From NCBI RefSeq assembly GCF_017876315.1, contig NZ_JAGINU010000004.1, positions 186,001 to 250,000 of the forward strand: a stretch of DNA of 64,000 nucleotides, in the 5' to 3' direction. Positions 8,703-49,540 of the stretch are shown here, one piece after another. The notes below the pieces were generated by a model. That model made no database searches, was not told the origin of the DNA, and worked only from the letters and a program-made list of their open reading frames with translations. Each line of letters starts with the position of its first letter. Position 1 is the first letter of the stretch. The stretch comes from Pseudonocardia parietis (GTDB lineage: Bacteria; Actinomycetota; Actinomycetes; Mycobacteriales; Pseudonocardiaceae). The position numbers and the translations under genes were made by a program.

Positions 8703-9536
8703 TCACGCCACCGTGCGTGCTGCCGCCACGAAGGCCATCAGCTCGTCGAGCTTGTCGGTTCGCGCTGCCGTCGCCCGGTCGAGGACGTGGATCAGGCTGT
8801 CGTAGGCGTCGGTGTGGTCGTAGCGGGCGGTGTCGGCGATCTTCAGTGCCCACCGCCAGTAGCCGCGCATCGTGTCCGCGAGTGGCATCCGGAAGGTCGC
8901 GATCACGTCCCGGATCGGTTCGACGACGGCGTCCCCGTGGTGGCGCAGGTACCGGCTGACGACGTCGGCCATGAATGTGAAGTGGCGTGCCTCGTCCCGC
9001 GAGAGCCGGGTCAGGACATCGGTGAGCACCGGCTCGTCGATGGCAGCCCGGAGCTGCTGGTAGTAGATCTGGGTGGCCTTCTCCTGCACCAGTGCATAGG
9101 CGAAGAACTGCACCGGGTGCTCGTAGGGCAGCTCGAACCGTTGCGCCCCGACCTCGGCGAGGGATCCCCGTAGCGTGTCGCGGTCGGTAATGCCGGATGC
9201 CGCCTGGTAGCGGGCCAGTGCGCGGGCGTGGGTGTCCTCCTCCGAGGCCCAGCGCACGGTGAAGTGGTACAGCTCGCGGTTGTGGGCGAACACCTCCGGT
9301 TCCACGGTGTCATCGACTGGGAAATGCCGGTGATAGATGTCGAAGTAGCCGGGTAGGTGGTCCTCGATGACGGTCACGAACTCGACGGCCGAGCGCTGTC
9401 CTTCGGTGAGCCGGTCGGCGTCGGCGGCGTCCCAGGCGAAGGTGGTCTCCGCGTCCCAACGTCGCCCCGGGGTCGTCGCTGCGAGGTAGGTGTCCACGGC
9501 GGGTGCGAGCTGGGCGGCGGTCAGGAGTCGGTTCAC
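8703..9536 (-). CDS. Soluble acyl-ACP desaturase-like diiron protein (277 aa)
   Basis: Ferritin-like diiron enzyme of the acyl-ACP desaturase (DesA/FAB2) family, expected to insert a double bond (or hydroxylate) on a chain held by an acyl carrier protein. The iron ligands are visible: VIEDHLPGYF matches the EDNLPSYHR motif of mycobacterial DesA, EEDTHARAL gives the EExxH motif and DEARHFTFM the second DExRH motif. The length is normal for the bacterial family. GTG at 9536 overlaps the TGA of the methyltransferase by four bases; longer upstream readings run antisense through that gene. Last gene of the left-arm operon, with the ACP at 10366 as likely substrate carrier. Confidence 0.85.
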   Translation of the reverse strand: MNRLLTAAQLAPAVDTYLAATTPGRRWDAETTFAWDAADADRLTEGQRSAVEFVTVIEDHLPGYFDIYHRHFPVDDTVEPEVFAHNRELYHFTVRWASEEDTHARALARYQAASGITDRDTLRGSLAEVGAQRFELPYEHPVQFFAYALVQEKATQIYYQQLRAAIDEPVLTDVLTRLSRDEARHFTFMADVVSRYLRHHGDAVVEPIRDVIATFRMPLADTMRGYWRWALKIADTARYDHTDAYDSLIHVLDRATAARTDKLDELMAFVAAARTVA

Positions 9537-10369
9537 CGCGCGTTCCGCAGCACGAGTGCGTAGTGCTTGGTGGTGTAGCCCCACCCGGCGTTGGACACGT
9601 CCAGGTAGTGCGTCAGCCGGGACGTGATCCCCGGTTCGATCGCGTCGAGCCGTGCAGCTGCGGCGCCTACGTTCTGCGCCCACTGTTCGATGGTGCGGTG
9701 GTAGTGCCTGGTCAGATCGAGGCTGGTCTCCACGGAGAAGCCGGCGTCTTCGGCGGCGGCGACCAGCTCGGAGAGGGGGCGCAGCTCGCCGTTGCCGAAG
9801 ATGGTCTCCCGCACGAAGTCGGTTCCGTCTACCTGGTTGAACCGGGCGCGGATCGCCGCGTTACGAAAACAGGATTCCGAGACGTACATCCGGCCGCCGC
9901 GGCGCAGCAGGCTTCGGGCTTTGGCGAGCGCCGCGGGCAGGTCGGGCATGTGTATCACCGAGCCCAGCGCGGTGACGGCGTCGAGGTCGTGTGGCAGGTC
10001 CTGCGCGGTCTCGAAGGGGCTGGTGATCATCCGGACGCGGTTGGCCAGGCCGCGTCGGCGCGCCCGCTGCTCGACGAACTCCTGCTGGCGTGGGGCCGGG
10101 CTGATCCCGGTGACGGTGCAGCCTCGAACGTCGGCGAGGTGTAGGACCAGCGCACCCCATCCCGATCCGATGTCCAGCACCCGTGAGCGGTCGTCGGCGT
10201 GGATCATGTCGGCGACGAGGTTCATCTTCTGACGCTGGGCGAGGTCGAGGGTCTCCTCGCCGGTGGCGTACCAGCCGGAGCTGTACTTGCGGGTCTCGCC
10301 CAAGAACAGCCCGAACACCCGCGGGTCGAGGTCGTAGTGCTGGTTGGTCGGATGCTCGAGGACGGTCAC
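9533..10369 (-). CDS. CFA-type SAM methyltransferase (278 aa)
   Basis: Class I S-adenosylmethionine methyltransferase of the cyclopropane-fatty-acid synthase superfamily. The N-terminal NQHYDLDPRVFGLFLG matches the HYD motif of CFA/mycolic acid methyltransferases, and VLDIGSGWGALVLHLA is SAM motif I. Such enzymes methylate or cyclopropanate a double bond in an acyl chain; which of these happens here is not decided. The natural substrate could be the product of the adjacent desaturase on the adjacent ACP. The ATG overlaps the ACP gene end by four bases. A second member of the family is at 44700. Confidence 0.8.
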   Translation of the reverse strand: MTVLEHPTNQHYDLDPRVFGLFLGETRKYSSGWYATGEETLDLAQRQKMNLVADMIHADDRSRVLDIGSGWGALVLHLADVRGCTVTGISPAPRQQEFVEQRARRRGLANRVRMITSPFETAQDLPHDLDAVTALGSVIHMPDLPAALAKARSLLRRGGRMYVSESCFRNAAIRARFNQVDGTDFVRETIFGNGELRPLSELVAAAEDAGFSVETSLDLTRHYHRTIEQWAQNVGAAAARLDAIEPGITSRLTHYLDVSNAGWGYTTKHYALVLRNAR

Positions 10370-10626
10370 AGCTTCAGCGCCTTCTGCAGCACACCGGCGA
10401 TCTCGGCGATCGTGCTGACGCCGAAGACGTCCTCGTCTTCGAGCTGCACGTCGTACTCGCGCTCGATGCGCGCAATCAGCCGCAGCACTTTGATGGAGTC
10501 CGCACCCTCGACCTCACGAAGGTCGGTGTCGGTGCCCAGCTGCGGCGCCGGGACGGCGAGGACCTCGGCGACGATCCGGCGAACGGCCTGGGTGATCTGG
10601 TCGATGGTCGGCAGGGAGGTGGTCAT
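10366..10626 (-). CDS. Stand-alone acyl carrier protein (86 aa)
   Basis: Four-helix acyl carrier protein with the phosphopantetheine site Ser in ADSIKVLRLI at about residue 44. The DSIK context is closer to Pfa/polyketide carriers than to the primary DSLD fatty-acid ACP. It probably holds the acyl chain that the FAAL at 11881 loads and that the desaturases and methyltransferase act on. ATGA overlaps join it to both neighbours. No phosphopantetheinyl transferase was seen in the window, so a gene elsewhere must activate it. Confidence 0.9.
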   Translation of the reverse strand: MTTSLPTIDQITQAVRRIVAEVLAVPAPQLGTDTDLREVEGADSIKVLRLIARIEREYDVQLEDEDVFGVSTIAEIAGVLQKALKL

Positions 10627-11060
10627 GACGCGCTCCTGGGCAGAGGGTGGTAGGTGGCGGTGGCGCTCGCGACGAGGTCGTCGTGGGCGTCGGTCACGTC
10701 GGCCACGGCGCCGATCAGGTCAGGGGTGCGGGAGATCAGGGCGGCGGTGACCCGGTAGGGGAGTCCGGTATGGACGGTGTCGACGTAGCGCATGCGCAGG
10801 CTCGTGGTGACCGCCGGGCGGTCGGCGCGCAGCACGATCAGGTTGCCCATGGTCTCGTCGCAGATCAGTGCGACGATGCCGCCGTGCACCACGTCGGGGT
10901 AGGACTCGTAGTGGTGGCCGAGGGCGAAGTCGGTCCGCAGGCCGGGGCCCTCGGCGGTGAAGGTCAACCCGAGTCCGTGCGGGTTACCCGGCGCGCACCC
11001 GAAGCAGTGGTGGTCTGCGCGCGTGCTCCAGGGCAGGGCGATCTGCGCGACGGTGGTCAT
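10623..11060 (-). CDS. PaaI-type hotdog thioesterase (145 aa)
   Basis: Single hotdog domain. An N-terminal Cys-containing loop (HHCFGCAPGNPHGLGL) is typical of PaaI-like acyl thioesterases in actinobacteria, and the catalytic-type segment DVVHGGIVALICDETMG carries the HGG motif with an acidic residue in the following helix. It would hydrolyse an acyl thioester, either releasing the product or editing a mis-loaded ACP. It is translationally coupled to the ACP (ATGA) and to the upstream diiron gene. Confidence 0.8.
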   Translation of the reverse strand: MTTVAQIALPWSTRADHHCFGCAPGNPHGLGLTFTAEGPGLRTDFALGHHYESYPDVVHGGIVALICDETMGNLIVLRADRPAVTTSLRMRYVDTVHTGLPYRVTAALISRTPDLIGAVADVTDAHDDLVASATATYHPLPRSAS

Positions 11061-11875
11061 GCCAACGCCTCGGCCAGTGCGCGGCGGACCTTCCCGTTGC
11101 TCGACAGGTCGCGGTCGGTGAGCGAGCCGATGGTCTTGCGGATCTTGTCCTGCAGTTCGTCGAGCTCGCCGGTGCCCGCCAGCTGGTCGAGGAACAGCTG
11201 GAAGCCCGTGTCGATGGTCTCGTGGCCCTCGAGGGCGTCGAGGCCGGACTTGAACACGCTGACGGGGTGGGTGATCGTGTCGTTGCAGGTGTAGAAGTAC
11301 AGCGTCTCCAACACGCTCGCGAGCTCGTCGGGGTGCTGCTCGAGGCGCTGCGCGGCAAAATGCCGGAACTCGCGGGCGTGTGCGGCCTCGTCTCGGCTGG
11401 CGCGCAGCAGCAGGTCGGCGAGTACCGGCTCGGCCACCCAGTTCGCGACGGCGCGGTAGACGTGGTTGACCGTCAGTTCGGAGATGATGTTGGTAGCCAG
11501 GGTCGCCGACGGTGTGGAGCCAGGTTCGTAGGGCGCGCGCATCGCGGCGACGGCACGGGAGTCCACGTCCTGGCCCACGGCCTGTAGCCAGGAGGTGAAG
11601 GCGTAGTGGTGTTGGACTTCCTGGTAGCCCCAGATCACGGCGAAGGCGGAGAAGTCGTAGTCGTCGGCGAACTCGTTGAGAAAGCCGTGTACGGCGGCGA
11701 TGACGTTGGATTCGCCCATGACCGCGCTCTTGACCAGCGTGACGTGCTCGGGCTTGACCAGGGATCGGTCGATGGCGGTCAGGTCGAGCTGGGCCAGCTT
11801 CCAGTGACCACGGTCGTAGTGGCGGAAGATGTCCAGGCTGTGCATGGCGTCCATGCCGGGGATCGTGTTGGTCAT
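11057..11875 (-). CDS. Second ferritin-like diiron protein, acyl-ACP desaturase-like (272 aa)
   Basis: A helical diiron protein related to the 8703-9536 product but clearly diverged. Candidate ligands are Glu in MGESNVIAAV, EVQHH in GYQEVQHHYAF, and DEAAH in SRDEAAHAREF. The helix containing the first Glu lacks the EDNLP motif. It may be a desaturase with different regiochemistry or an oxygenase (hydroxylase, or N-oxygenase on an amine tail). ATG at 11875 is preceded by GAGAGGTGA and starts five bases after the FAAL stop, so the genes are co-translated. Confidence 0.75.
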   Translation of the reverse strand: MTNTIPGMDAMHSLDIFRHYDRGHWKLAQLDLTAIDRSLVKPEHVTLVKSAVMGESNVIAAVHGFLNEFADDYDFSAFAVIWGYQEVQHHYAFTSWLQAVGQDVDSRAVAAMRAPYEPGSTPSATLATNIISELTVNHVYRAVANWVAEPVLADLLLRASRDEAAHAREFRHFAAQRLEQHPDELASVLETLYFYTCNDTITHPVSVFKSGLDALEGHETIDTGFQLFLDQLAGTGELDELQDKIRKTIGSLTDRDLSSNGKVRRALAEALA

Positions 11876-11880
11876 GTCGA

Positions 11881-13500
11881 TCACCTCTCGAGGAGCGCGG
11901 CTGTGGCCAGTCGGCGCAGCTTGCCGCTGGTGGTGCGGGGCAGGGAGTCGGGTGCGGTGAGGTGGACCGTCAGCGCCGACAGGTCCAGCGCGCGGCGTAT
12001 GCGCGCGGAGATTGCGTGGCGCAGGGCCTCGTGCTCCGCCTCGGGCGCGGCCGTTTCGACGACGATCGCGATGTGCTCGCAGGGTTCGAGGACGGCGAGG
12101 GCAACGCACCGCCCGCGGCGGACGCCGTCGATCGCGGCGGCCTCGGCCTCGACGTCTGCGGGGTAGATGTTGACCCCGCGGACTGTGATCATCTCCTTGG
12201 TGCGGCCGACGAAGAACAGCTCGCCGGCCCGCAGGTAGCCCAGGTCGCCGGTGCGTAGCCAGCCGTCCTCGGTGAATGGGCGGGAGCCGTCGAGGTAGCC
12301 GCTGGTCACGGCCGCGCCGCGGAGCTCGATCTCGCCGACGGTCCCCTCCGGCGCGCCACCGGCGATCCGAATCGCCATGCCGGGTACGGGCCGGCCCAAT
12401 CCCACGATCTCCTTCGCTGTGCCGGAGGCTCGGGGCGCGACCACCGTCGCGCCGGCGAGGGCTTCTCGGTCGATGCAGTCGATGATGGGCGCGCGCCCGA
12501 GCGGCGGCAGGGTCGCGACGAGCGTGGCTTCGGCCATGCCGTAGCCGGGGGTCATGGCCTCGGCGCGGAAGCCCGCGTGTTCGAACCGCGTGGCGAACGC
12601 CGCGATCGACTCCGGGCGGATGATTTCCGCGCCGTTGAAGCAGACCCGCCAGGCGGCGAGGTCGAGGTCCTGTTGCGGGGTGTCGAGGAGCGCGTCGAAC
12701 GCGAAGTTCGGCATGGTCGAGATGGTCGAGCGGGTGGCGGCGAACTCGGCCAGCCACCGGCCGGGGTCCTTCACGAACGCGGTGGGGTTCCACAGGTTGA
12801 TCGGGATGCCGGTGAAGATCCCGGTCAGGGTGCCGAACAGGCCCATGTCGTGGAACAGCGGCAGCCAGGACGCGTGCGCGTCCCCCGGGCCGATGGCGAT
12901 GGCCTCGGTGATCGACTCTGCGCAGGCCAGGATGTTGGTGTGGGTGAGCACCACGCCCTTTGGTGCTGCGGTGCTGCCGGAGGTGAACTGGAGCACGGCG
13001 GGGGTGGCCGGGTCGACGGTGCGTGGGGGCAGCTCGGGTCCGGGCGTGGTGAGCGTGGTGGAGTCGTGGAGCGTGCCCGCACCGAACTGCGCTGCGCGGG
13101 CGCCGAGCATCCGGGTGACGCTGTTCGACACGACGAGGTGCGACATGGCTGCCGCGGCGACGATCCGGGCGGTCCGGGCGCCGTACTCGGCGAGATCACG
13201 CAGGCCTGCGGGCAGGGGTAGCGGGCAGACGGCCGCGCCGAGGCGGGAGGCGGCGAAGACGGTCTGCAGGAACTCGGGGCCGTTGGGCGCGAGGATCCCG
13301 ATCGCGTCCCCGGGGGCGGCGTGCAGGCGCGCGGCCATCCGTTTCGAGGAGGCGACGAGCTCGGCGTAGGTCAGCACTGATCTGTCGGAGTGGAAGCGGA
13401 TGACCTGGTCCGGGCTGTCGGCGGCGACGGCGTCGAGCCGCTCGTGCAGGGTCGGTTCGCTGCGGGGTGCGACGCGACCGAGGGCGGGCTCTGCGCTCAT
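11881..13500 (-). CDS. Fatty acyl-AMP ligase, FAAL (539 aa)
   Basis: Adenylate-forming enzyme that activates a free fatty acid as acyl-AMP and, in this family, passes it to a carrier protein instead of CoA. Motifs: FTSGSTAAPKGVVLTH (phosphate loop), FNGAEIIRPES and GYGMAEATLV, both characteristic of FAALs, then a TGDLG motif and the hinge region in the last 120 residues. ATG at 13500 overlaps the flavoprotein stop by four bases; an in-frame ATG at 13512 lies inside the upstream gene. The ACP at 10366 is the obvious acceptor. A second FAAL lies at 47376, so two separate acyl chains may be activated in this locus. Confidence 0.85.
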   Translation of the reverse strand: MSAEPALGRVAPRSEPTLHERLDAVAADSPDQVIRFHSDRSVLTYAELVASSKRMAARLHAAPGDAIGILAPNGPEFLQTVFAASRLGAAVCPLPLPAGLRDLAEYGARTARIVAAAAMSHLVVSNSVTRMLGARAAQFGAGTLHDSTTLTTPGPELPPRTVDPATPAVLQFTSGSTAAPKGVVLTHTNILACAESITEAIAIGPGDAHASWLPLFHDMGLFGTLTGIFTGIPINLWNPTAFVKDPGRWLAEFAATRSTISTMPNFAFDALLDTPQQDLDLAAWRVCFNGAEIIRPESIAAFATRFEHAGFRAEAMTPGYGMAEATLVATLPPLGRAPIIDCIDREALAGATVVAPRASGTAKEIVGLGRPVPGMAIRIAGGAPEGTVGEIELRGAAVTSGYLDGSRPFTEDGWLRTGDLGYLRAGELFFVGRTKEMITVRGVNIYPADVEAEAAAIDGVRRGRCVALAVLEPCEHIAIVVETAAPEAEHEALRHAISARIRRALDLSALTVHLTAPDSLPRTTSGKLRRLATAALLER

Positions 13501-14780
13501 GTCGCCATCCATGTTCGCTGCTCGTGGTGGATTGCCCGGTCGGCGCCGGGGCGCAGCACCCGAGCCAGCAGTGACGGGGCGAGCAACGCGGACGCGGGGT
13601 CGGCCAGGTTCGCGACGCGGATCAGGGCCCGCGCGACCACGGGATCGCAGTGCCCGACCCGCTGGACCCGGGTCACGTAGGAGTCGAGTATCCGGGCGGG
13701 CAGCGGGCGGGTACCCGGCACCTCGGGCAGGGCGAGGTCGGCGCGCGTCGCGATCTGCCAGGCCGCGCGGCACAGCCGGCCGATCGCGCGGTGCAGGTCG
13801 CGGGCCCGGTGCCCGTCCCAGCTGCGCAGGGCGGTGGCCTGCTGCGCGGCGAGCGTCATGCCCTGGGCGTAGAGCGGGTTGAGGCTGCACACGGCGTCCC
13901 CGATCACCGCGAGTCCTTCCGGCAGGCAGCGTTGCAGGTCGTAGCGGCGGTGCCGGGAGCCACGGAACCGGTAGGGGACCGGGTCGTCGAGGGGCTCGGC
14001 GTGCGCCACGAGGTCACCTATTGGCCCGGTGGGTAGGGAGGCGGCGAACGCTCGGAACCCGGCGTCGTCGACCGGCGGGTGATCACTAAGCAGCCCGGCC
14101 AGGGTGACCAGCCAGCGGTCGCCTTCGACGGCCATCGCCCCGCCACCGCGCGAGCGCGGCACGGTCGAGACCAGCGCGTTGCGGTCGCCGCCGAGATCGC
14201 CGGGGTGTCTGCGGTAGAGCCGGGTCGCGTAGCCGAGGTCGACATCGACTCGGTGCTCGCGCGGGCGGCCCAGTCCCACTTCGGTCAGCCAATCCGGCAG
14301 CCGGGAGGCCCGACCGGAGGCGTCCACGACGAGGTCGGCGGGCAGGACCGTGCCGTCGGCGAGCCCGACGGCCCGGACGTGGCCGGCGTCGAGTTCCAGG
14401 CTCACCGCCGTCGCGCACACAATCTCGGCGAGGGTCCGGTGGCGCAGCACGTCCTCGATCAGCGGCCGGGAGGCGAGCACCGATCGCAGACCGGTGTCGG
14501 TCGGATGCAGTCGCCTGCCGTGCATGTACCAGCGGGTGTCTACGAGGGGTTCGGCGGTGAGCGCGCCGGCGGCGACGAGGTCGTCGGTGAAGCCGGGATG
14601 CAACTCTTCCACGATCCGGCGGCCTCGGTCGAGCAGCCCGTGCAGGTGCCGGCCCTGCGGGACGCCGCGGCGGGCGCCGGAGCCGGTGTCGCGCTCGACG
14701 ACGGTCACCGGCCCGCGCTCGGCGAGCACGCGCGCAGCCAGCAGCCCGGCTACACCGCCGCCGATCACGATCGAGCGCAT
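13497..14780 (-). CDS. FAD-dependent mono-oxygenase, epoxidase-like (427 aa)
   Basis: Rossmann FAD-binding N-terminus (IVIGGGVAGLLAARVLAERG), then GVPQGRHLHGLLDRG near residue 40. The GVPQGRHxHxLL pattern is seen in polyether epoxidases of the MonCI/LasC type and related flavin mono-oxygenases, and a GDAVCSLNPLYAQGM segment closes the FAD site. It could epoxidise or hydroxylate a double bond in the acyl chain. A halogenase or reductase role is less likely because no halogenase WxWxIP motif is seen. ATG at 14780 directly abuts the upstream TAG. Confidence 0.75.
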   Translation of the reverse strand: MRSIVIGGGVAGLLAARVLAERGPVTVVERDTGSGARRGVPQGRHLHGLLDRGRRIVEELHPGFTDDLVAAGALTAEPLVDTRWYMHGRRLHPTDTGLRSVLASRPLIEDVLRHRTLAEIVCATAVSLELDAGHVRAVGLADGTVLPADLVVDASGRASRLPDWLTEVGLGRPREHRVDVDLGYATRLYRRHPGDLGGDRNALVSTVPRSRGGGAMAVEGDRWLVTLAGLLSDHPPVDDAGFRAFAASLPTGPIGDLVAHAEPLDDPVPYRFRGSRHRRYDLQRCLPEGLAVIGDAVCSLNPLYAQGMTLAAQQATALRSWDGHRARDLHRAIGRLCRAAWQIATRADLALPEVPGTRPLPARILDSYVTRVQRVGHCDPVVARALIRVANLADPASALLAPSLLARVLRPGADRAIHHEQRTWMAT

Positions 14781-15212: not shown

Positions 15213-15375
15213 GAGCCTCAGCGCACCAATTCCTCGAGGCGTGGTCAACGCGTCGACGGTGCCAGAATCGTGCCATCAGTAATGCTGATCGAGGTTGGAT
15301 GAACGGCGGCATCTTGTCGTCTCCCGGCTACTTCGCCGACAGTTCCGAGACGATGTTCCCGGGTGGGCTTGAAGG

Positions 15376-21777: not shown

Positions 21778-22000
21778 CGGAGTCTCCTTCTGGGGTCGGG
21801 TCGGCGTGCTCGGGTCGGGTGTGCTCGGGTCGCAGTGGCCGGATCGCCGCGGCGGTTGCGCGGATGTCAGCAGTACGGGATGGCCCGGGGGTGAACGGTG
21901 GGCGTCGGCTGGGCGGTGCGGGCGCTTCCGCGGCCGGCCCGTGACCGTCGGCAGCGGCCCTGAGCAGCGACGATCGGGGATCGTGGCGGATCGATCGGAA
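21778..22000. promoter_or_regulatory. Upstream region of the ABC operon
   Basis: About 220 bases between the VanB-type reductase stop and the ugpC start. It includes a direct repeat of GTGCTCGGGTCG near 21806-21832. No clear promoter hexamers were recognised, but the operon start must be driven from here or by read-through from the reductase. Confidence 0.3.
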
Positions 22001-22888: not shown

Positions 22889-22940
22889 GGGGCGCGACGC
22901 TAGGCCCGCCCGAGGCCGGTGAACCTGGCGAATGGGAACG

Positions 22941-42136: not shown

Positions 42137-43503
42137 TGCACACCGTCTTGATCGCGAACCGTGGCGAGATCGCCCTGCGGGTGCTGCGGACCTGCCGGGA
42201 GATGGGTCTGCGCACGGTCGCGGTGTACTCCCAGGTCGACGACGGTTCGGCCGTGGTCGGCGAGGCCGATGAGACCGTGCGGATCGGGCCCGGACCCGCC
42301 CGGCGCAGCTACAACCACATCCCTGCGGTGATTGAGGCCGCCCGGATGACCGGCGCCGACGCCATCCATCCCGGCTACGGCTTCCTGTCGGAGAATCCCG
42401 ACTTCGCCGAGGTCTGCGCGGCCGAGGGCATCACGTTCGTCGGGCCCCCGCCGGAGGTCATGGAACGCCTGGGTGACAAGGCTTCCGCCCGTGCGGCGAT
42501 GGTCGCTGCCGGGTTCCCGCTGCTTCCGGGCAGCACCGACGCGATCGACGACCCGGACGCCGCGAAGTCGTTCGCCGACGAGATCGGTTACCCGATCATC
42601 ATCAAGGCTGTCGCCGGAGGTGGCGGCCGCGGGATGGCCGTTGTGCGGGATCCGCGGGAGTTCACCGAGACCTATCGCCGCACCCGGGCGGGTGCGGCGG
42701 CGGTGTTCGGCGACGGGCGGGTCTACGTGGAGCGCTACCTCGACTCCGCCCGCCACGTCGAGATTCAGGTGCTGTGCGACACCCACGGCAACGGGGTCCA
42801 CCTGGGCGCGCGGGACTGCTCGGTGCAGCGCCGCCACCAGAAGCTCGTCGAGGAGACCCCGGCGCCCGGGCTGTCCGACGATGCGCAGCGGGAGATCGGT
42901 GAGTCGGCGGTGCGCGCGGTGCTCTCGGTCGGATACGTCGGCGCCGGCACCGTCGAGATGCTCGTCGACACCGCGTGTGCGCACTACTTCATGGAGGTCA
43001 ACTGCCGGCTGCAGGTCGAGCATCCGGTGACCGAGATGGTGACCGGCATCGACCTGGTCGCCGAACAGCTTCGCGTCGCGATGGGGGAGCCGCTGCGGTT
43101 CACCCAGGACGGGATCCGGTTTCACGGGGTGGCCGTCGAGTGCCGGATCAACGCCGAGGACCCCGTCAAGGACTTCGCTCCCACCCCGGGGCTGTTGGAG
43201 TCGGTGGAACTGCCCGGTGGCCCGTTCGTGCGGGTGGACACCCACGTCGCGGCGGGCAGTCGGATCCCGTCGGAGTACGACTCGCTGCTGGCCAAGGTGA
43301 TCACCTGGGCGCCGGATCGCGACGCCGCGTTGCGCCGGATGGACCGCGCGCTGGCCGAGACCCGGCTGCGGGGCGAGCGCATCGCGACCACCGCGGGCTT
43401 TCTCCGCGAGGTGCTCGCCGAACCCGACTTCCGGGCCGGACGGCACGACACCGGCCTGCTGGACCGCATGAAGGACCGACCTTTGGGAGGAGTGGCGGTA
43501 TGA
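42136..43503 (+). CDS. accC: Acetyl-CoA carboxylase biotin carboxylase (455 aa)
   Basis: ATP-grasp enzyme that carboxylates biotin on AccB. N-terminal LIANRGEIALRVLRTCRE, the Gly-rich ATP lid KAVAGGGGRGM, the catalytic Glu-Asn region FMEVNCRLQVEHPVTEM and the ARDCSVQRRHQK segment are all present. The length is that of a stand-alone AccC, so it is not the long actinobacterial AccA3-type fusion used in primary metabolism. GTG at 42136 in TAGTG couples it to accB; ATGA couples it to the desaturase. Confidence 0.9.
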   Translation: MHTVLIANRGEIALRVLRTCREMGLRTVAVYSQVDDGSAVVGEADETVRIGPGPARRSYNHIPAVIEAARMTGADAIHPGYGFLSENPDFAEVCAAEGITFVGPPPEVMERLGDKASARAAMVAAGFPLLPGSTDAIDDPDAAKSFADEIGYPIIIKAVAGGGGRGMAVVRDPREFTETYRRTRAGAAAVFGDGRVYVERYLDSARHVEIQVLCDTHGNGVHLGARDCSVQRRHQKLVEETPAPGLSDDAQREIGESAVRAVLSVGYVGAGTVEMLVDTACAHYFMEVNCRLQVEHPVTEMVTGIDLVAEQLRVAMGEPLRFTQDGIRFHGVAVECRINAEDPVKDFAPTPGLLESVELPGGPFVRVDTHVAAGSRIPSEYDSLLAKVITWAPDRDAALRRMDRALAETRLRGERIATTAGFLREVLAEPDFRAGRHDTGLLDRMKDRPLGGVAV

Positions 43504-44444
43504 CCGTGATCGAACGGCCCGAGCCGCGGAGGAAGACGATCTCGAGCCCCTACATCCACCGTTTACAGCGCAAGCACTTCCTGCTCTTCGACATCGCACC
43601 GATCATCGGGGCCGTTGCGGCGGTGGCGTTTTTGTGGGTGCACCCTTTCGGCTGGACCGAGGCTGCCCTGCTGTTCGCCGGATGGCTGGTCACCGGGCTC
43701 GGGGTGACCGTGGGTTATCACCGGTTGTTCACCCACCGCACTTTCACGGCGACGCCCGCAGTGCAGGCGGTGCTCGCCGTCCTCGGTTCCATGGCGGGCC
43801 AAGGCGCGGTCATCTCGTGGGTGGCGCTGCACCGCCGTCATCACGAGTACTCCGACCGCGAGGGTGACCCGCACTCGCCGAACCTGTCCGGCGGCGGTCT
43901 CGTCGGCGCGATGCGGGGCCTCGCACACTCGCATTTCCTGTGGATGCGCCGCCACGAATACCCCAACGTCGTCCACTACGCCCCGGATCTGATCAAGAAC
44001 CGGGCGCTGGTGAAGGTCGCACGGCTCTACTACTGGTGGGTCGGGTTGGGCCTGGTGATCCCGACGGTGATCGGTGGGCTCGTCGACCTCTCGTGGCACG
44101 GGGCGGTGTCCGGGCTGCTGTGGGGTGGGTTCGTGCGGATCTTCGTGCTGGAGCACATCGTCTGGGCGATCAACTCCTTCCTGCACATGGTTGGGACCAA
44201 GCCCTTCGAGTCACGAGAGAACAGCCGCAACGGCGGCGTGTTCGCGCTGATCACCCTGGGCGAGTCGTGGCACAACAATCACCACGCCTTCCCGGAGTCC
44301 CCGTCGTTCGGCCTGGACTGGTATCGGCTCGATCCCGGGTTCTGGCTGATCAAGGTCCTTCAGGTCGCCGGTCTGGTCTGGGACCTCAAGACCCCGTCCG
44401 AGGAGCGCCGCGAGTCTCGGCGCATCCGATCTGTAGGAGCCTGA
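43500..44444 (+). CDS. Membrane fatty acid desaturase, DesA3/OLE1 type (314 aa)
   Basis: Integral membrane diiron desaturase. The three His boxes are HRLFTH (about residue 75), HRRHHEY (about 112) and HNNHHAF (about 260), with four predicted membrane helices. The pattern is that of delta-9 acyl-CoA desaturases such as mycobacterial DesA3. It would add a double bond to a CoA- or lipid-bound chain, and electrons would come from a separate reductase. It overlaps accC by four bases and is followed one base later by the ACP start. Confidence 0.9.
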   Translation: MTVIERPEPRRKTISSPYIHRLQRKHFLLFDIAPIIGAVAAVAFLWVHPFGWTEAALLFAGWLVTGLGVTVGYHRLFTHRTFTATPAVQAVLAVLGSMAGQGAVISWVALHRRHHEYSDREGDPHSPNLSGGGLVGAMRGLAHSHFLWMRRHEYPNVVHYAPDLIKNRALVKVARLYYWWVGLGLVIPTVIGGLVDLSWHGAVSGLLWGGFVRIFVLEHIVWAINSFLHMVGTKPFESRENSRNGGVFALITLGESWHNNHHAFPESPSFGLDWYRLDPGFWLIKVLQVAGLVWDLKTPSEERRESRRIRSVGA

Positions 44445-44445
44445 C

Positions 44446-44703
44446 ATGGGCGAAACGGTGGCTACGGACATCGCGTCGATCGTCGAGTGGTGCCGCGGGT
44501 ACCTCGCCGACCTGCTCGACACACCCCTTGCCGAGATCGACCCGGATGCCGACTTCGATCGTCTCGGCGTGGACTCCGCGCTCGCGGTGTCCTTGCTGAT
44601 CGAGGTCGAGGAGCGTTACGGGGTGGACATCGCCCCGGAGGAGCTCTTCGAGGACCCGACGATCAGTGCGGTGGCCGCGTACCTTCACCAGAGGTCGAGA
44701 TGA
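44446..44703 (+). CDS. Second stand-alone acyl carrier protein (85 aa)
   Basis: Acyl carrier protein with the phosphopantetheine Ser in LGVDSALAV at about residue 45. It differs from the left-arm ACP (DSIK) and resembles modular-type carriers that follow FAALs. It is the likely acceptor for the FAAL at 47376 and substrate platform for the methyltransferase at 44700 and P450 at 45512. ATG at 44446 begins just after the desaturase stop; ATGA overlap with the next gene. Confidence 0.9.
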   Translation: MGETVATDIASIVEWCRGYLADLLDTPLAEIDPDADFDRLGVDSALAVSLLIEVEERYGVDIAPEELFEDPTISAVAAYLHQRSR

Positions 44704-45515
44704 GCTCTGCAGAGGCCATCCGCCGCCATTACGACGTCGGCAACGACTTCTACCGGCTCTGGCTCGACCCGACGCTGAGCTACTCCTGTGCGTGGCGGTC
44801 CGGGGCCGACTCGCTCGAACAGGCACAGGAGCACAAGCTCCGCCGCCACCTCGCAGTCGCCGGTGCCCGGCGTCGGCTGCTCGATGTGGGATGTGGCTGG
44901 GGTGGGGTCCTGGCGCGTGCCGGGGTGCCCGCGGTGGGGCTCACCCTGTCGGCCGCCCAGGGCGCACACGTCGCGGCACTAGGGTTGCCGAACGTCGAGG
45001 TGCGGGTGGAGGATTGGCGCGATCACGTGCCCGTCGAGCCCTACGACGGGATCGTGTCCATCGGCGCGTTCGAGCACTTCGCCGCACCCGGTGCCGACAA
45101 GGTCGCCATCTACCGGGAGTTCTTCACCCGGTGTCGGGAATGGCTATCCGGTGGTGCGTTGTCCCTGCAGACCATCGCCTACGCGGACATGGACCCGGCC
45201 GAGGCGAGCGCGTTCATGCAGCAGGAGATCTTCCGCGACGCTGAACTGCCCACCCTCGCTGAGATCGCTGCGGCTGCCGAGGGGGTCTTGGAGATCACGT
45301 CGATGTCCAACGGTCGTCTCGACTATGCCTGGACCTGCGCGCAATGGGCGCGCCGGCTCAAGGCCCACCGGGGCGAAGCACGCGAGTTGGTCGGTGCCGA
45401 GACGGTGGCCCGCTATGAGCGCTACCTGACGATGTCGTCGTTCGGCTTCCGGATGAGCAAGCTGGCCTTGTACCGGATCACCCTGCGGCCCTATGGCTCC
45501 CGGTGGGGCGCATGA
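44700..45515 (+). CDS. CFA-type SAM methyltransferase, second copy (271 aa)
   Basis: Cyclopropane-fatty-acid synthase family. N-terminal RRHYDVGNDFYRLWLDPTLS is the classic CFA/MmaA start, LLDVGCGWGGVLA is SAM motif I, and SIGAFEHFA is the conserved active-site region around the bicarbonate-binding Glu-His. The N-terminal motif is closer to true CFA synthases than in the 9533 gene. It may cyclopropanate or branch-methylate the double bond made by the preceding desaturase. ATGA overlaps on both sides. Confidence 0.85.
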   Translation: MSSAEAIRRHYDVGNDFYRLWLDPTLSYSCAWRSGADSLEQAQEHKLRRHLAVAGARRRLLDVGCGWGGVLARAGVPAVGLTLSAAQGAHVAALGLPNVEVRVEDWRDHVPVEPYDGIVSIGAFEHFAAPGADKVAIYREFFTRCREWLSGGALSLQTIAYADMDPAEASAFMQQEIFRDAELPTLAEIAAAAEGVLEITSMSNGRLDYAWTCAQWARRLKAHRGEARELVGAETVARYERYLTMSSFGFRMSKLALYRITLRPYGSRWGA

Positions 45516-46669
45516 GGTTCAACCCGTTCGCCGCGGGCTTTCGGCAGGACCCGTACCCGCACTATGCCGCGCTGCGCGAGGCCGGCCCCACTCGCTCCCT
45601 CGGCATGTGGGTGCTGGCCCGCCACGCCGACGTCCTGGCCGTCCTGCGGGACCGGAGCTTCAGCGCCGAGCTGATCCCTGCCCTGGTGGCCCGCCGCGGT
45701 GGGGAGCTCGAGCAGATCCTGCGGCTCGGCCGAGCGTCGCTCGTGTTCACCGACGACCCGGCTCATGCACGGCTGCGCGGCCTGGTGAATCGGGTGTTCA
45801 CACCCGCGGCGGTCGCCGATCTGCAGCCGATGATCACCGAGATCGCCCGGCGCCGGACGGAGGGGCTGCGGGCCGATTTGATGAGCGAGGTGGCCGCGCC
45901 GCTGCCGGTCGAGGTGCTGTGCCGGTGGCTGGGTCTGCCCGCCGCGCTGCACGGCCGGGTTGCGGGTTGGACCCACGACATTCGGTCCCTCCTTGAGCCG
46001 GGGCTGCTGAACAGCGACGATCTCGCGCGCGTCGCGGACGTCGTCGAGAGCTTCGTGTCCGTGCTGGTCGCGGTCCTCCGCGATGCACCGCCCGGTTTGC
46101 TCACCGACCTTGCCACCGCCGGGACCGCTGGGGGCGATCGGCTCACCGAGGAGGAGACCGCCCTGTTGGGGATCATGTGCTGCGTGGCGGGCACCGAGAC
46201 CACCTCCGCGCTGATCGGCAACGTCGCGCTCGCCGTCCTGCGTCGACCCGGCGGGATCGCCGCAGGCTCGGCCCCGACAGTTGTCCGCGAAACCCTGCGC
46301 TACGACAGCCCGCTGCAGATGACCAAGCGGATCGCTACCCGTGACGTCGAGATCGGCGGGACGCGGATCGCTGCGGGTGATCAGGTTCTGCTGTGTCTGG
46401 CTGCGGCCAATCGCGACCCGGCGGTGTTCGCGGACCCGGACACCTTCGACCCGACCCGCGAACCCTGCCCGCATCTCGGCTTCGGGTTCGGGATGCACGG
46501 CTGCCTGGGCAGCACCCTGGCCGAGATGCAGGCCTGCGCGGTGCTCGACGCCCTGGCTAAGGGGCCTGACCTGCGGCTCACGGGCACGGTGTCGTGGCAG
46601 ACCGACAGCCTCATCGTGCGTGCCCCTCGAACGCTCCCGGTGGTCGCGGTCCCGGTCGGTGCGCGATGA
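45512..46669 (+). CDS. Cytochrome P450, second copy (385 aa)
   Basis: P450 with a short N-terminus (NPFAAGFRQDPYPHYAALRE), the I-helix motif AGTETTSALIG, the ExxR region (RETLRYDSPLQM) and heme loop GFGMHGCLGSTLAEMQ with ligand Cys331. The I-helix Thr is kept, so oxygen chemistry is expected. It sits between an ACP/methyltransferase pair and a type II thioesterase, which suggests oxidation of an ACP-bound or freshly released acyl chain. Coupled by ATGA on both sides. Confidence 0.9.
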   Translation: MRFNPFAAGFRQDPYPHYAALREAGPTRSLGMWVLARHADVLAVLRDRSFSAELIPALVARRGGELEQILRLGRASLVFTDDPAHARLRGLVNRVFTPAAVADLQPMITEIARRRTEGLRADLMSEVAAPLPVEVLCRWLGLPAALHGRVAGWTHDIRSLLEPGLLNSDDLARVADVVESFVSVLVAVLRDAPPGLLTDLATAGTAGGDRLTEEETALLGIMCCVAGTETTSALIGNVALAVLRRPGGIAAGSAPTVVRETLRYDSPLQMTKRIATRDVEIGGTRIAAGDQVLLCLAAANRDPAVFADPDTFDPTREPCPHLGFGFGMHGCLGSTLAEMQACAVLDALAKGPDLRLTGTVSWQTDSLIVRAPRTLPVVAVPVGAR

Positions 46670-47379
46670 CCGCGGTGCCTGTCCGCCGCAGGCTCCGCGA
46701 CACGCCACCGGTGGAGGGGACCGCGCTGGTGTGCTTGCCCCATGCCGGGGCGGGAGCGGCGTCGTTCGCGCGGTGGCTGGGGTTGTTCGATGCACCGATC
46801 GGGGTGGTGCGGGCCCAGCTTCCCGGCCGCGAGGACTGCGCAAGCGAGGAGCCGCTGCGCCGCGTCGCCGACGCCGTCGAGCTGCTTTTTCCCGAGGTGG
46901 CGGCGCTACCGCGGGTCGCGCTCTACGGGCACAGCATGGGGGCGGTGATCGCCTTCGAGCTGGCCAGGGCGCTGGCCGCAGCCGGCCGGGCGCCCGCACA
47001 CCTGTTCGTCTCCGGGCGTCGCGCCCCGCACTGTCGGGCCCGGCACCGCGGCATTCACCGCCTGCCCGATGCAGAGTTCGCCGAGGCGTTGGGCAGCGCC
47101 GTCATCGGTCCACCCCACTTTCTTCGCTACGCCCTGGCGCTCACCCGCGCCGACCTCACCCTGTCCGAGGACTACTCGGGAGCAGCGGACCCGCGAGTGC
47201 CGTGCCCGATCACGGCCTTCCACGGCCGGGACGACCCGATCGTGGCCGTCGACGAGGTGCAGGCCTGGTCGGCCGCGACCACCGGCACGTTCACGCTGCA
47301 CCTGCTCGAGGGCGAGCACCTGTTCCACCAGCCGCGACGCCGCGAGCTCGCGGCGCTCATGACGGGAGCGCTCACGTGA
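46666..47379 (+). CDS. Type II thioesterase (237 aa)
   Basis: Alpha/beta hydrolase of the TEII (GrsT) family. It starts LVCLPHAGAGAASFARW, carries the nucleophile elbow GHSMGAVIAFELAR (Ser near residue 90), the Asp in HGRDDPIV and the His in EGEHLF. Such enzymes clear stalled or wrongly primed acyl groups from carrier proteins. Placed between a P450 and the FAAL, it probably edits the stand-alone ACP and the three synthase ACPs. ATGA and GTGA overlaps. Confidence 0.9.
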   Translation: MTAVPVRRRLRDTPPVEGTALVCLPHAGAGAASFARWLGLFDAPIGVVRAQLPGREDCASEEPLRRVADAVELLFPEVAALPRVALYGHSMGAVIAFELARALAAAGRAPAHLFVSGRRAPHCRARHRGIHRLPDAEFAEALGSAVIGPPHFLRYALALTRADLTLSEDYSGAADPRVPCPITAFHGRDDPIVAVDEVQAWSAATTGTFTLHLLEGEHLFHQPRRRELAALMTGALT

Positions 47380-49109
47380 TCGTGCCGGAGGTGTTGGCGA
47401 GTCGCGCCGCGCAGTCGCCCCGCCGGACCGCCTACGTGTTCGTCGACGAGGGCGGCGAGGAGACCCGGGTGCTGAGCTACGCCGAGCTGCACGATCGTGC
47501 GCTGGGGGTCGCCGCAGCGCTGCCGTGCCGTCCGGGGGAGCGGGCGTTGCTCGCATTTCCGCAGTGCCCCGAGTTCGTGATCGCGTTCCTCGGCTGCCTC
47601 TACGCCGGAGTGGTGGCGGTGCCGGTGAACCCGCCGCGGCGCAACCGGGCGCAGGAGGCGACGGCGGCCGTGGTGGGGGACTCGGCGCCATCGGTGGTGC
47701 TCACGCTGCGGTCGTCCATCCCGCCGTTGCAGCAGATACTGGCCGGTCCATTTGCGTGGCTCGCGGTCGACGAGGTCGAACCCGCCCGAGGTGCTCCCGT
47801 GGCTCGGCGGCCCGGGGACCTCGCGTTCCTGCAGTACACCTCGGGCTCGACGTCCACTCCCAAGGGTGTCATGGTCTCGCACGGCAATCTGGCCGCGAAC
47901 CAGGAGATGATCGCCGCCGCGTTCGGGCACGACGAGGACTCGACCGTCGTCGGTTGGGCGCCCTTCTTCCACGACCAGGGCCTGATTGGCAACCTGCTGC
48001 AGCCCCTGTGGGTGGGCGCTCGGGCGATCATGATGTCGCCCATGGCGTTCGTGCGCCGGCCCCTGCTCTGGCTCGAAACGATCTCCCGGTATCGGGCGCA
48101 CACCAGCGGCGGTCCGAACTTCGCCTTCGACGCCTGTGTGAGTGCCGCTTCCCGAGGACCGGTCCCGGCCATCGACCTGAGCTGCTGGAAGGTCGCCTTC
48201 AACGGCGCCGAGCCGGTCCGGCCGGAGACCGTGCGGGCGTTCACTGCGACGTTCGCCCCGCATGGGTTCACTGCCGCCGCGATGCACCCCTGCTACGGCC
48301 TGGCCGAGGCAACGCTGATTGTGACGAGCACCGGTAAGCTCCGCGGTCCGCGGGTTCTGCCCGCCGATGCCGCCGCACTCGAGATCGATGCCACGACTCG
48401 GGCAGCGCCCGCGGGGGGTCGGGTCCGCGAGCTCGCCGGTTCCGGGCAGGTACTTGCCGGGGAGACCGTCCGGATCGTGGACCCGCAGTCGTTGCGGCCG
48501 TGCCCGCCCACAGCGGTCGGCGAGATCTGGGTGGCCGGCCCTGCTGTGGCACAGGGCTACTGGCGTCGTCCCGAGGCGAGCGCGGACACCTTCCGCGCCC
48601 GGATCGACGGCGAACCGGACGACTACCTACGCACCGGGGATCTCGGCGTCATCGAGGACGGCGAGCTCTACGTGGTGGGGCGGGTCAAGGACCTCGCGAT
48701 CATTCGTGGGCGTAACTACTACCCCCACGATGTGGAGCACACGGTCGCCTCGGCCCATCCCGCGCTGCAGCCTGGTGCCGGTGCCGCCTTTGCCGTCCCC
48801 GGCGCGGAGGGTGAACGACTCGTCGTCGTGCAGGAGGTCCGACGCGAGCACCGACGATGCGGCGATCCCCGCGAGGTCCTCGCAGCGGTGCGCGCTGCGC
48901 TCGCGCAGGAGCACGAGCTCTCCCTGGCCGAGCTCGTCGTCACCCTGCCGGGACGGGTTCCGAAAACCAGCAGCGGCAAGGTCCGCCGCGCCGCCGCCGC
49001 GGCGATCCACGCCGCTGAGGGATTCGACCGTTGGTCACCTGTTGCCCGCCCGTCGGCTACCGGAGTGCAGCAGGGTGCGCTCGTGCAGCCCGACGCCGAA
49101 GGAGTCTGA
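47376..49109 (+). CDS. Fatty acyl-AMP ligase, second copy (577 aa)
   Basis: FAAL with QYTSGSTSTPKGVMVSHGNL, FNGAEPVRPETVRAF, CYGLAEATLIVTS, RTGDLGVIEDGELYVVGRVK and a C-terminal domain with KTSSGKVRR. The NGAEPV and YGLAEATL segments are strong FAAL hallmarks (FadD32-like). It activates a fatty acid as acyl-AMP and loads a carrier, probably the ACP at 44446. It may supply the starter for the synthase or attach a separate chain. GTG at 47376 overlaps the thioesterase TGA. Confidence 0.9.
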   Translation: MIVPEVLASRAAQSPRRTAYVFVDEGGEETRVLSYAELHDRALGVAAALPCRPGERALLAFPQCPEFVIAFLGCLYAGVVAVPVNPPRRNRAQEATAAVVGDSAPSVVLTLRSSIPPLQQILAGPFAWLAVDEVEPARGAPVARRPGDLAFLQYTSGSTSTPKGVMVSHGNLAANQEMIAAAFGHDEDSTVVGWAPFFHDQGLIGNLLQPLWVGARAIMMSPMAFVRRPLLWLETISRYRAHTSGGPNFAFDACVSAASRGPVPAIDLSCWKVAFNGAEPVRPETVRAFTATFAPHGFTAAAMHPCYGLAEATLIVTSTGKLRGPRVLPADAAALEIDATTRAAPAGGRVRELAGSGQVLAGETVRIVDPQSLRPCPPTAVGEIWVAGPAVAQGYWRRPEASADTFRARIDGEPDDYLRTGDLGVIEDGELYVVGRVKDLAIIRGRNYYPHDVEHTVASAHPALQPGAGAAFAVPGAEGERLVVVQEVRREHRRCGDPREVLAAVRAALAQEHELSLAELVVTLPGRVPKTSSGKVRRAAAAAIHAAEGFDRWSPVARPSATGVQQGALVQPDAEGV

Positions 49110-49540
49110 TGAACAGCCCCAACCCCGACTTCGCCGAGGCTGTGCGCACGGCGATCGTCACCATGCCTGCCGCGGCCCACCTCGGATTCACCTTCGGCGC
49201 GCTGGCCCCGGGGGCGGCCGAACTGGTGCTGTCGGTACGCCCCGAGCACACCCAGCACAACGGCTACGTCGCCGGCAGCGTGATTGGCGCCCTCGCCGAC
49301 TTCGCGGGTGGCTCGGCGGCGGGCACGCTCCTGCCGGTCGGCTGGGTGTCTATGACGTCGGACTACACGGTCAAGTTCCTCGCGCCGGCGACGGGCGACA
49401 CGGTGTTCGCCCGAGGCCGGGTGCTGAAGGTCGGCCGGGCCATCTCGGTCGCCGCGGCGGACGTCGTCACTCTGGACGGTGGATCGGAGACCCTGTGCGC
49501 CACGGCCCTGGTCACCTTGCGGAACCTCGAGGTGAACTGA
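49109..49540 (+). CDS. PaaI/DUF4442-type hotdog thioesterase (143 aa)
   Basis: Single hotdog domain with HLGFTFGALAPGAAELVLSV and HNGYVAGSVIGALADFAGG, where the N-G-Y-V-A-G loop and the Asp in the following helix occupy the PaaI active-site place. The usual HGG His is replaced by Asn-Gly, so activity may differ from classical PaaI. Last gene of the operon, joined to the FAAL by TGATG, and only 20 bases before the ISL3 end. Confidence 0.75.
   Translation: MNSPNPDFAEAVRTAIVTMPAAAHLGFTFGALAPGAAELVLSVRPEHTQHNGYVAGSVIGALADFAGGSAAGTLLPVGWVSMTSDYTVKFLAPATGDTVFARGRVLKVGRAISVAAADVVTLDGGSETLCATALVTLRNLEVN

Follow-up and report, generated by a model that had tools for sequence, protein, structure and literature searches.

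What does a bacterium assemble with two sets of acyl-processing genes in a single locus? The question is raised by positions 8703–49540 of a 64,000-nucleotide stretch of Pseudonocardia DNA (hereafter the window; positions 186,001–250,000 of contig C4, which has 463,583 bases, in an 8.1 Mb genome of four contigs). An earlier note on this DNA described two arms, each with a fatty acyl-AMP ligase (FAAL), a stand-alone acyl carrier protein (ACP), a methyltransferase of the cyclopropane fatty acid (CFA) family, a cytochrome P450, a desaturase, a flavoprotein and a hotdog enzyme, with a synthase in the right arm only, and proposed that two acyl chains are handled apart and then joined, or that there are two products. 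We find that the locus divides differently, into a synthase core and two cassettes, and the cassettes are separable. With slightly better than even confidence, we read it as one orphan lipid cluster of three exchangeable modules, in which the two tracks would make optional, additive acyl modifications within one lipid family.

Genes were called from open frames and codon-position GC; the main frames were scanned with Pfam, and 20 of these also with NCBIfam. Profile scans and PDB matches confirmed the described inventory of each arm, and the synthase (29478–39834) is indeed confined to the right one. The boundary between the arms did not hold. The Ugp-like transporter, the LysR regulator, the acyl-CoA synthetase FadD and the “right” flavoprotein (RbFAD) belong to a shared core, because regions that lack the right cassette contain them too, as does G420, a genome that lacks the left one; the two arms were thus rejected as a natural unit. 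The locus is better read as a core (a Pfa-type synthase with its own acetyl-CoA carboxylase, FadD, a GDSL protein, a FAD protein, LysR, and a Ugp-like importer with a phosphodiesterase), a left cassette (FAAL, ACP, two soluble diiron proteins of the acyl-ACP-desaturase type, a methyltransferase and a hotdog thioesterase) and a right cassette (FAAL, ACP, a membrane desaturase, a methyltransferase, a P450 and two thioesterases). Gene overlaps depend on the start codons chosen in this analysis. With these, 11 of the 12 junctions between 29478 and 49540 overlap, by 1–13 bases and mostly by four, so that synthase, carboxylase and right cassette form one run, and the right cassette therefore looks translationally coupled to the synthase in the window's genome. 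Most left genes likewise overlap their neighbours, in a run separate from that of the synthase; the genes of the left arm are all on the minus strand except the P450, which is on the plus strand.

The separability of the modules emerged from a comparison of 11 regions, the window and ten others picked because their contigs are long and carry the left genes. All 11 contain five of the six left genes, both permeases, LysR, GDSL, and the three synthase and three carboxylase proteins. The left FAAL was found in ten by gene calling, and tblastn added it for the region of G009; six regions have the right desaturase, ACP and methyltransferase. Genome-wide, neither G009 nor G016 has a right methyltransferase at E <= 1e-60, and the sole FAAL match of each at this threshold is the left FAAL. 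Gene order in G009, a Pseudonocardia, is shuffled: the biotin carboxylase adjoins the left P450, and the transporter genes stand at the far end, yet core and left cassette are kept. The converse is seen in G420, which carries the core and the right cassette, minus the last hotdog gene, without the left cassette. In G332, a Nocardia (genus group of the N. rosealba genome), left cassette and core lie together and the whole right cassette is 446 kb from PfaD. The earlier note would have regarded its proposal as refuted by related genomes that carry one arm without the other, far apart, and share no metabolite; the genomic side of this is seen in part, in left-only genomes, the right-only G420 and the distant right cassette of G332.

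Loci of Streptomyces, Solihabitans and some Actinokineospora contain the six left genes as an operon by itself, and no Pfa synthase was found in them. The operon is preceded there by genes for two small proteins and a P450, mostly accompanied by one for a phosphopantetheinyl transferase; at L077:5272-8351 one small protein is MaoC-like and the other has no Pfam match, and equivalents are found in L069, L094, L101, L103, L104, L112 and L115. Genome-wide, no PfaD was detected at E <= 1e-20 in G136, G144, G156, G158 and G168, and G162 and G163 have PfaD homologues of 54% and 47%. Two further arrangements were noted among the compared regions. In P. xinjiangensis (L031; G016:C221:153716-170000), two P450s and apparent large polyketide synthase (PKS)/nonribosomal peptide synthetase (NRPS) genes, read from the sequences as 977, 1790, 1106 and 769 aa, sit at the position of the right cassette. 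Two Nocardia regions (G141:C11:992787, 996098 and 998290, and the equivalents in G161) hold three genes that are absent from the window; read from their sequences, these encode a further hotdog protein, a protein resembling acyl-CoA dehydrogenases and an alpha/beta hydrolase.

We followed each module across genomes, many of them drafts, by one marker gene: the left diiron protein, PfaD for the synthase, and the right methyltransferase. A scan of public genome contigs with two short exact peptide patterns gave 71 left loci, a lower bound, which by record title comprise 43 from Nocardia, 8 from Actinokineospora, 6 from Amycolatopsis, 5 from Pseudonocardia and 4 from Streptomyces, with single loci from Actinomycetospora, Thermocatellispora, Kutzneria, Solihabitans and an Acidobacteriaceae metagenome-assembled genome (L096; a binning error or a transfer). 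FAAL, left diiron protein, thioesterase, ACP and methyltransferase occur together in 70 of the 71 and all six genes in 68; the exceptions (L084, L101 and L115) are loci that break off there. Among 120 relatives, six other Pseudonocardia genomes have the left diiron protein at 81–93%, and five of these have PfaD at 65–90%; the remaining one, G029, is a draft assembly in some 1250 contigs.

A set of 55 genomes was picked for the left protein (49, derived from 50 of the 71 left loci, of which L114 dropped out) or for PfaD (6 Pseudonocardia), with PfaD counted as an orthologue at >=60% and lower matches not counted. PfaD is present in 42 of the 49, and left protein and PfaD together in 47 of the 55, a count that includes G128 despite a partial PfaD match (190 residues) and the Kutzneria genome (G165) despite the distant position of its homologue. 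The two genes share a contig in 34 of the 47 and lie 15–66 kb apart in 33 of these, the exception being Kutzneria, whose PfaD homologue is 9.36 Mb off in linear coordinates, in a different neighbourhood without other core genes. The remaining eight genomes are six with the left marker only, G162 with left and right markers and a PfaD of 54%, and G046 with neither marker and a PfaD of 55%. The right methyltransferase reached 60% or more in 25 of the 47; matches of 51–52% (G156, G137) were not counted, and 21 of the other 22 have no match at E <= 1e-60, G137 having one of 52%. The co-occurrence of both arms in related genomes, suggested earlier as a check, was by these markers found in 25 genomes with left cassette and synthase, and the right marker was not counted as present in 22.

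The pairing of left cassette and synthase was also evident in an order sample of 397 genomes selected for neither gene. At a cut-off of 62%, set after the list was seen, PfaD was found in seven genomes besides the window's; six carry the left protein and the seventh is G420. The left protein, at 69% or more over its full length, was found in 6 genomes, all 6 of which have PfaD (Fisher p 9e-12, kinship ignored). In this tally the left protein was scored as absent from G196 (49%), and G453 (two fragments, 70% and 61%) was entered among genomes with the left protein alone; the window's genome was kept out of the first cells and not subtracted from the total, within which it possibly falls. The pairing is more than chance and is retained across genera: left cassette and core are kept together in Pseudonocardia, Nocardia, Amycolatopsis, Actinokineospora, Actinomycetospora and Thermocatellispora, despite rearrangements.

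How alike are the two sets? The earlier characterization, a duplication of function and not of sequence, applies to part of them. Between the arms, blastp gave no match for the ACPs, matches of 7–11 residues only for the desaturases and thioesterases, and one over 48 residues (E 0.015) for the flavoproteins, none of them a useful alignment. The FAALs (34% identity, E 4e-66), the P450s (33%, E 2e-52) and the methyltransferases (27%, E 1e-13) are distant homologues. The desaturases differ in type, the left one being of the soluble diiron acyl-ACP type and the right one a membrane protein (PF00487). An insertion after the YG.AE motif is specific to FAALs, and the distance from this motif to the next shared one is 44 residues in the left FAAL, 45 in the right FAAL and 18 in MhFadD, a third AMP-binding enzyme of the locus that had gone unnoticed before, that lacks the insertion and that falls in a separate clade. 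The best PDB matches of the left FAAL are FAALs (3pbk 2.5e-66; FadD32, FadD23), with CoA ligases behind. In a ligase tree of 66 rows, all 12 right FAALs lie on one side of a branch with support 100/100, 32 left FAALs group with support 100/98, and the FadD rows are separate; three rows labelled by BLAST as left FAALs (two of G016, one of G141) fall apart and, by their size, were taken as NRPS adenylation domains. A quick methyltransferase tree of 46 rows splits left and right clades at 100. Since both trees separate them, each set is an old lineage of its own, common to several genera through descent or transfer.

The two methyltransferases had been treated as equivalents. All non-plant enzymes keep the residues that correspond to C139, E239, H266, I268 and Y317 in the E. 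coli cyclopropane synthase, and a mycobacterial structure has a bicarbonate ion bound at this site (PMC3132707). The right methyltransferase retains the bicarbonate-site Cys and Glu (YSC, EHF) in 12 of 12 distinct rows, with Gln at the His position in all 12, like the cotton enzymes; its nearest PDB structure is CmaA2 (1.3e-32). In the left methyltransferase neither residue is present in any of 31 distinct rows, Cys being replaced by Ser or Ala and Glu by Val or Ile, and its PDB relatives are MmaA1, UmaA and then plant N-methyltransferases, with cyclopropane synthases close behind. By these active-site residues the left and right methyltransferases (METHYLTRANSFERASES) are of different kinds and, because of the replacements, cyclopropane formation along the known route is unlikely for the left enzyme.

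The left cassette holds another protein missed by the earlier note, LeDiFe, with no family match in the Pfam and NCBIfam scans. Its model (pLDDT 90.5) has stearoyl-ACP desaturase 1oq9 as the top Foldseek match (E 3e-5, TM 0.66), with R2-like oxidases ranking after the stearoyl-ACP desaturases, and its ligand pattern (E54, E85xxH88, E132, E162xxH165) is invariant in 37 sequences. The same kind of pattern (E59, E101xxH104, E153, E183xxH186) is invariant in 32 rows of LaDes, whose nearest PDB structure is DesA2 (1za0, E 4e-9). The type II thioesterase RmTEII of the right cassette had likewise escaped notice.

The synthase core differs from the standard Pfa set, to which a PfaC-type protein with ketosynthase (KS), chain-length factor (CLF) and DH2 domains belongs. 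RdPKS has the order KS-acyltransferase (AT)-ACP3-ketoreductase (KR)-dehydratase (DH), its three ACP serine motifs marking tandem ACPs. In ReFabA neither KS nor CLF was found by profile and FabA matching, so that it does not match the KS-CLF-DH2 composition of PfaC; its structure model is of low confidence (pLDDT 55.5), and hotdog matches alone were taken from it. Neither a PfaC KS-CLF nor PfaB was seen within the locus. The carboxylase that follows the synthase (fused AccD-AccA, biotin carboxyl carrier protein, biotin carboxylase) is an acetyl-CoA carboxylase in the E. coli style. The importer resembles the Ugp system for glycerol-3-phosphate and glycerophosphodiesters in its UgpB-near binding protein, two permeases, TOBE_2 ATPase and adjacent phosphodiesterase, but binding protein and permease fall far below the equivalog cut-offs (99 versus 411 for UgpB; 124 versus 297 for UgpE). 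The retention of the UgpB-like protein in 10 of the 11 regions and of the Rv0805-like phosphodiesterase in 8 hints at a glycerophosphodiester or sugar headgroup. The lipid cluster also holds two phosphodiesterase-type hydrolases, one Rv0805-like (18475–19380) and one of the metallo-beta-lactamase (MBL) fold (24117–25019) with a sub-threshold match to cyclic-nucleotide phosphodiesterases.

In the cluster as we picture it, the Pfa-type iterative synthase (KS-AT-ACP3-KR-DH, FabA-like dehydratase and PfaD), fed by its own acetyl-CoA carboxylase, would build an acyl chain, accompanied by the GDSL hydrolase, FadD, flavoprotein, LysR, and Ugp-like importer with phosphodiesterase. On the left, the FAAL would load a free fatty acid onto ACP-1, the two soluble diiron enzymes and the methyltransferase without the cyclopropane-synthase site would alter the bound chain, and the hotdog thioesterase would release it. 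On the right, the second FAAL would load ACP-2, the membrane desaturase would introduce a double bond, the canonical CFA-type methyltransferase would put a methylene or methyl at this bond, the P450 would oxidize the chain and the thioesterases would release it. We infer the reactions, their substrates, the order of steps and the action of the cassettes on the synthase's own product; gene content, conservation, separability and active-site patterns are observed, and some species carry the left cassette only, one sampled genome the right only, and some both.

Several points weigh against this picture. The right cassette without the left is known from one genome only, G420, which lacks the last hotdog gene and whose carboxylase matches are weak (51% for the biotin carboxylase, and 29% across 130 residues for the carboxyltransferase). 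With the PfaD cut-off at 60%, only 6 of 11 order-sample genomes have the left protein, and PfaD relatives at 60% occur without either cassette in G314, G356, G336 and G185, where the stretch fetched around the Pfa synthase has no transporter, GDSL, FAD or FadD genes; the synthase family alone thus does not predict the cassettes. Because the left operon stands alone elsewhere with no Pfa synthase nearby, the left cassette need not act on the chain of that synthase. LeDiFe was placed by fold and ligand pattern alone and may be no desaturase but another kind of oxidase.

The joining of two chains, for instance into a diacyl lipid or an ester, now seems quite improbable. The tracks are separate within one conserved locus, each with its own FAAL, ACP and desaturase type and with a FAAL and a methyltransferase that form clades of their own, and to this extent the proposal stands; the Ugp-like importer and phosphodiesterase could supply a glycerol-phosphate backbone. 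The joining itself is not borne out. Each cassette is dispensable, occurring with the synthase and without the other (the left is absent from G420 and the right marker was not counted in 22 of 47), and since the cassettes are separable, obligate joining is unlikely. No joining enzyme was recognized either: at E <= 0.001 the frames scanned at 8703–49540 showed neither an NRPS condensation domain nor a wax-ester synthase nor a further ketosynthase. The chief rival to optional modification, though unlikely in our judgement, is that one or both FAAL/ACP cassettes prepare a modified acyl-ACP as primer for the Pfa synthase, which then extends it with malonyl units from the in-locus carboxylase. The JamABC trio primes its polyketide synthase in this manner. 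Trios of FAAL, ACP and desaturase are known cassettes (PMC8406139), the right cassette continues the synthase-carboxylase run of the window through successive gene overlaps, and the synthase has one KS with no chain-length-factor domain seen. The thioesterases of both cassettes, however, suggest release and not hand-over, and in other genomes the left cassette forms an operon of its own, with the core occurring beside either cassette alone.

That two independent pathways with two products merely adjoin, having the region alone in common, is very improbable. It would agree with the left cassette standing alone in Streptomyces and Kutzneria, the latter with its PfaD homologue remote from any core neighbours, and with a right cassette as far away as in G332, but the retention of left cassette and core together over six genera through rearrangements speaks against it. 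We know of no role for FAAL/ACP/methyltransferase/P450 cassettes in polyunsaturated fatty acid (PUFA) synthesis, and this, together with a locus in which no PfaC KS-CLF or PfaB was seen, makes a plain PUFA cluster beside ordinary lipid-remodelling genes hardly credible, even though the PfaA and PfaD family cut-offs are passed and such a product was predicted for Nocardia cluster #11 (PMC4035055). Optional modification by exchangeable cassettes remains our preferred reading.

How much of the assembly has been described? The known part is the Pfa-type synthase. Cluster #11, reported from N. brasiliensis IFM 10487, has a PfaA-like synthase predicted to make PUFA, no PUFA having been found in Nocardia so far (PMC4035055); a search of that text gave no match for desaturase, acyl-AMP ligase, cyclopropane or PfaD. 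The record that bears the title N. brasiliensis IFM 10847 holds a left-cassette locus, and as its genome (G137) has a single PfaD match (62%), the cluster #11 synthase is probably of the window's type. Actinobacterial Pfa-type clusters (types L, M and Q) have been catalogued without known product, and fused pfaBC types exist (Shulse & Allen 2011, PMC3098273). The window shares with Pfa-type secondary lipid synthases the PfaA-type KS-AT-tandem ACP-KR and the PfaD reductase, and adds a DH in PfaA, the dedicated acetyl-CoA carboxylase, the Ugp-like importer and two FAAL/ACP cassettes. The earlier statement that no pathway with this set is described therefore probably fails for the synthase; of the whole combination we found no published account in a search conducted mostly without subscription journals. 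The left cassette may be more novel than the rest.

The pathway that modifies meromycolates comprises DesA1/DesA2, CmaA/MmaA, AcpM and FadD32, and the cluster is like it in its soluble proteins of the acyl-ACP-desaturase type, its methyltransferases of the CMAS family, its FAAL and the presumed binding of substrates to ACP; the solved structures closest to the cluster enzymes include DesA2 and CmaA2/MmaA1. The mycolic-acid condensing enzyme Pks13 was rejected (NF040607, 348 versus 2100 bits), the window's FAALs pass no FadD32 cut-off in NCBIfam, and to our knowledge Pseudonocardia, Amycolatopsis and Actinokineospora, where the cluster also occurs, are without mycolic acids. With the JamABC alkyne cassette the right cassette shares the three marker kinds (FAAL, membrane desaturase, ACP) plus a thioesterase (PMC8406139), called here by Pfam and PDB and not by the InterPro entries of that paper. 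It differs in having one membrane desaturase and an extra CFA-type methyltransferase and P450, and alkyne formation is not indicated; a polyyne cassette was rejected, two further desaturases and a rubredoxin not being among the frames scanned. The amycomicin pathway has AmcQ, AmcB and three P450s (PMC13273461), and with it in mind a general scan, the Pfam tables of the window's frames, showed nothing named as isonitrile-forming.

Table 1. Genes of the locus, in window positions (counts are compared regions, of 11, that have the gene; E values are of PDB matches)
Feature	Positions	Strand	Evidence and occurrence
LaDes, acyl-ACP-desaturase-type diiron protein	8703..9540 (start uncertain)	-	PF03405 64.8 bits (cut-off 22.7)
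LbCMA, CFA-superfamily methyltransferase	9533..10369	-	PF02353 129 bits; without tested CFA active-site residues
LcACP, stand-alone ACP	10366..10626	-	PF00550; GADSI serine motif
LdTE, hotdog thioesterase-like	10623..11060	-	PF03061 20.5 bits, slightly below 20.6 cut-off
LeDiFe, second diiron protein, acyl-ACP-desaturase fold	11057..11875	-	fold and ligand pattern
LfFAAL, FAAL	11881..13512	-	PF00501 (whole-genome scan); FAAL-type spacer
LgFAD, FAD-dependent oxidoreductase/halogenase-like	13497..14780	-	PF04820 33.4 bits; 9/11
Lh4HBT2, hotdog thioesterase	14781..15221	-	PF13279 68.6 bits; 6/11
LiP450, cytochrome P450	15376..16578	+	PF00067
MaPerm, Ugp/MalG-type ABC permease	16618..17496	-	PF00528; UgpE-like below cut-off; 11/11
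MbPerm, second ABC permease	17486..18480	-	PF00528; 11/11
McMPE, Rv0805-like phosphodiesterase	18475..19380	-	Rv0805 2.6e-49, then 2zo9/2dxl phosphohydrolase; 8/11
MdSBP, UgpB-like solute-binding protein	19290..20650	-	UgpB 3.8e-24, 6r1b UgpB lipoprotein 1.3e-21; 10/11
MeABC, ABC ATPase with TOBE_2	20680..21780	-	PF00005, PF08402
MfFer2, 2Fe-2S reductase, possible electron donor	22001..23011	-	PF00111
MgLysR, LysR regulator	23098..24018	+	PF03466, PF00126
MBL-fold hydrolase (cyclic-nucleotide phosphodiesterase/RNase Z-like)	24117..25019	+	PF12706 87.8 bits; NF041851 below cut-off; 7/11
MhFadD, CoA-ligase-type acyl-CoA synthetase	25080..26661 (start uncertain)	+	PF00501, PF23562
RaDUF4442, hotdog protein	26787..27392	-	PF14539
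RbFAD, FAD protein, geranylgeranyl-reductase/monooxygenase-like (core)	27610..28815	+	PF01494
RcGDSL, GDSL esterase/lipase	28815..29396	+	PF13472
RdPKS, PfaA-type synthase KS-AT-ACP3-KR-DH	29478..36173	+	TIGR02813 1596.7 bits (cut-off 1010.1)
ReFabA, FabA-like dehydratase subunit, probably two or more hotdogs	36170..38257	+	PF07977; FabA matches
RfPfaD, PfaD-type enoyl reductase	38254..39834	+	TIGR02814 609 bits (cut-off 449)
RgAccDA, fused AccD-AccA carboxyltransferase	39831..41549	+	TIGR00515 343 (over 317); TIGR00513 305 (under 319)
RhBCCP, biotin carrier protein	41546..42136	+	PF00364
RiBC, biotin carboxylase	42136..43503	+	Biotin_carb_N, CPSase_L_D2, Biotin_carb_C; NF006367 604 (over 597)
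RjDes, membrane fatty acid desaturase	43500..44444	+	PF00487; three histidine boxes
RjjACP, stand-alone ACP	44446..44703	+	PF00550 68.1 bits
RkCMA, CFA-type methyltransferase with active-site Cys and Glu	44700..45515	+	PF02353 190 bits
RlP450, cytochrome P450	45503..46669	+	PF00067; heme motif
RmTEII, type II thioesterase	46666..47379	+	PF00975 110 bits; 4/11
RnFAAL, FAAL	47376..49109	+	best PDB matches FAALs: 7r7e 5e-149, FadD23, FadD32; FAAL-type spacer
RoTE, hotdog thioesterase	49109..49540	+	PF03061 39.9 bits; 5/11; not found in G420

The surroundings of these genes offered a few further observations. Beside the left arm, at 3401–8332, lie a gene for a 1451-aa P-type ATPase and a small upstream gene; this pair may be part of the cluster, because it adjoins the right cassette in Amycolatopsis deserti (G126). 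Two transposases of the ISL3 and Mutator types (49649–52194) follow immediately after the right cassette on the 463.6-kb contig, and at 56349–61789 there are phosphotransferase system genes (IIB, IIA, PtsI-like) with a DeoR regulator, by appearance unrelated to the lipid genes. The cluster of G009 sits on a 6.27-Mb contig. A comparison of 22 kb of the window (8001–30000) with plasmids returned 80 records, 12 of them at >=80% identity; among the 20 matches listed, at most 3% of the query was covered, mostly in ABC-transporter genes, so that no informative plasmid relative emerged.

For the organisms concerned, we tentatively suggest, at somewhat less than an even chance, that the left six genes are a new, self-contained operon for the modification of ACP-tethered fatty acids, which different lineages have combined with a Pfa synthase and with another FAAL cassette of different chemistry, in the manner of exchangeable building blocks of lipid assembly. 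Its FAAL would load the ACP, a diiron enzyme of an unnamed family and a desaturase-type enzyme would oxidize the chain, and a CFA-family methyltransferase would alkylate it by other chemistry. The left cassette would then supply new enzymes that modify carrier-protein-bound fatty acids, and it is carried on contigs of which 43 of 71 are titled Nocardia, a genus that includes pathogens. Both cassettes are carried by Pseudonocardia kujensis and Amycolatopsis deserti, and the left one only by Pseudonocardia xinjiangensis, Actinokineospora auranticolor and Thermocatellispora tengchongensis. The natural strains with the left cassette only, the right only or both amount to a ready-made experiment on the contribution of each cassette.

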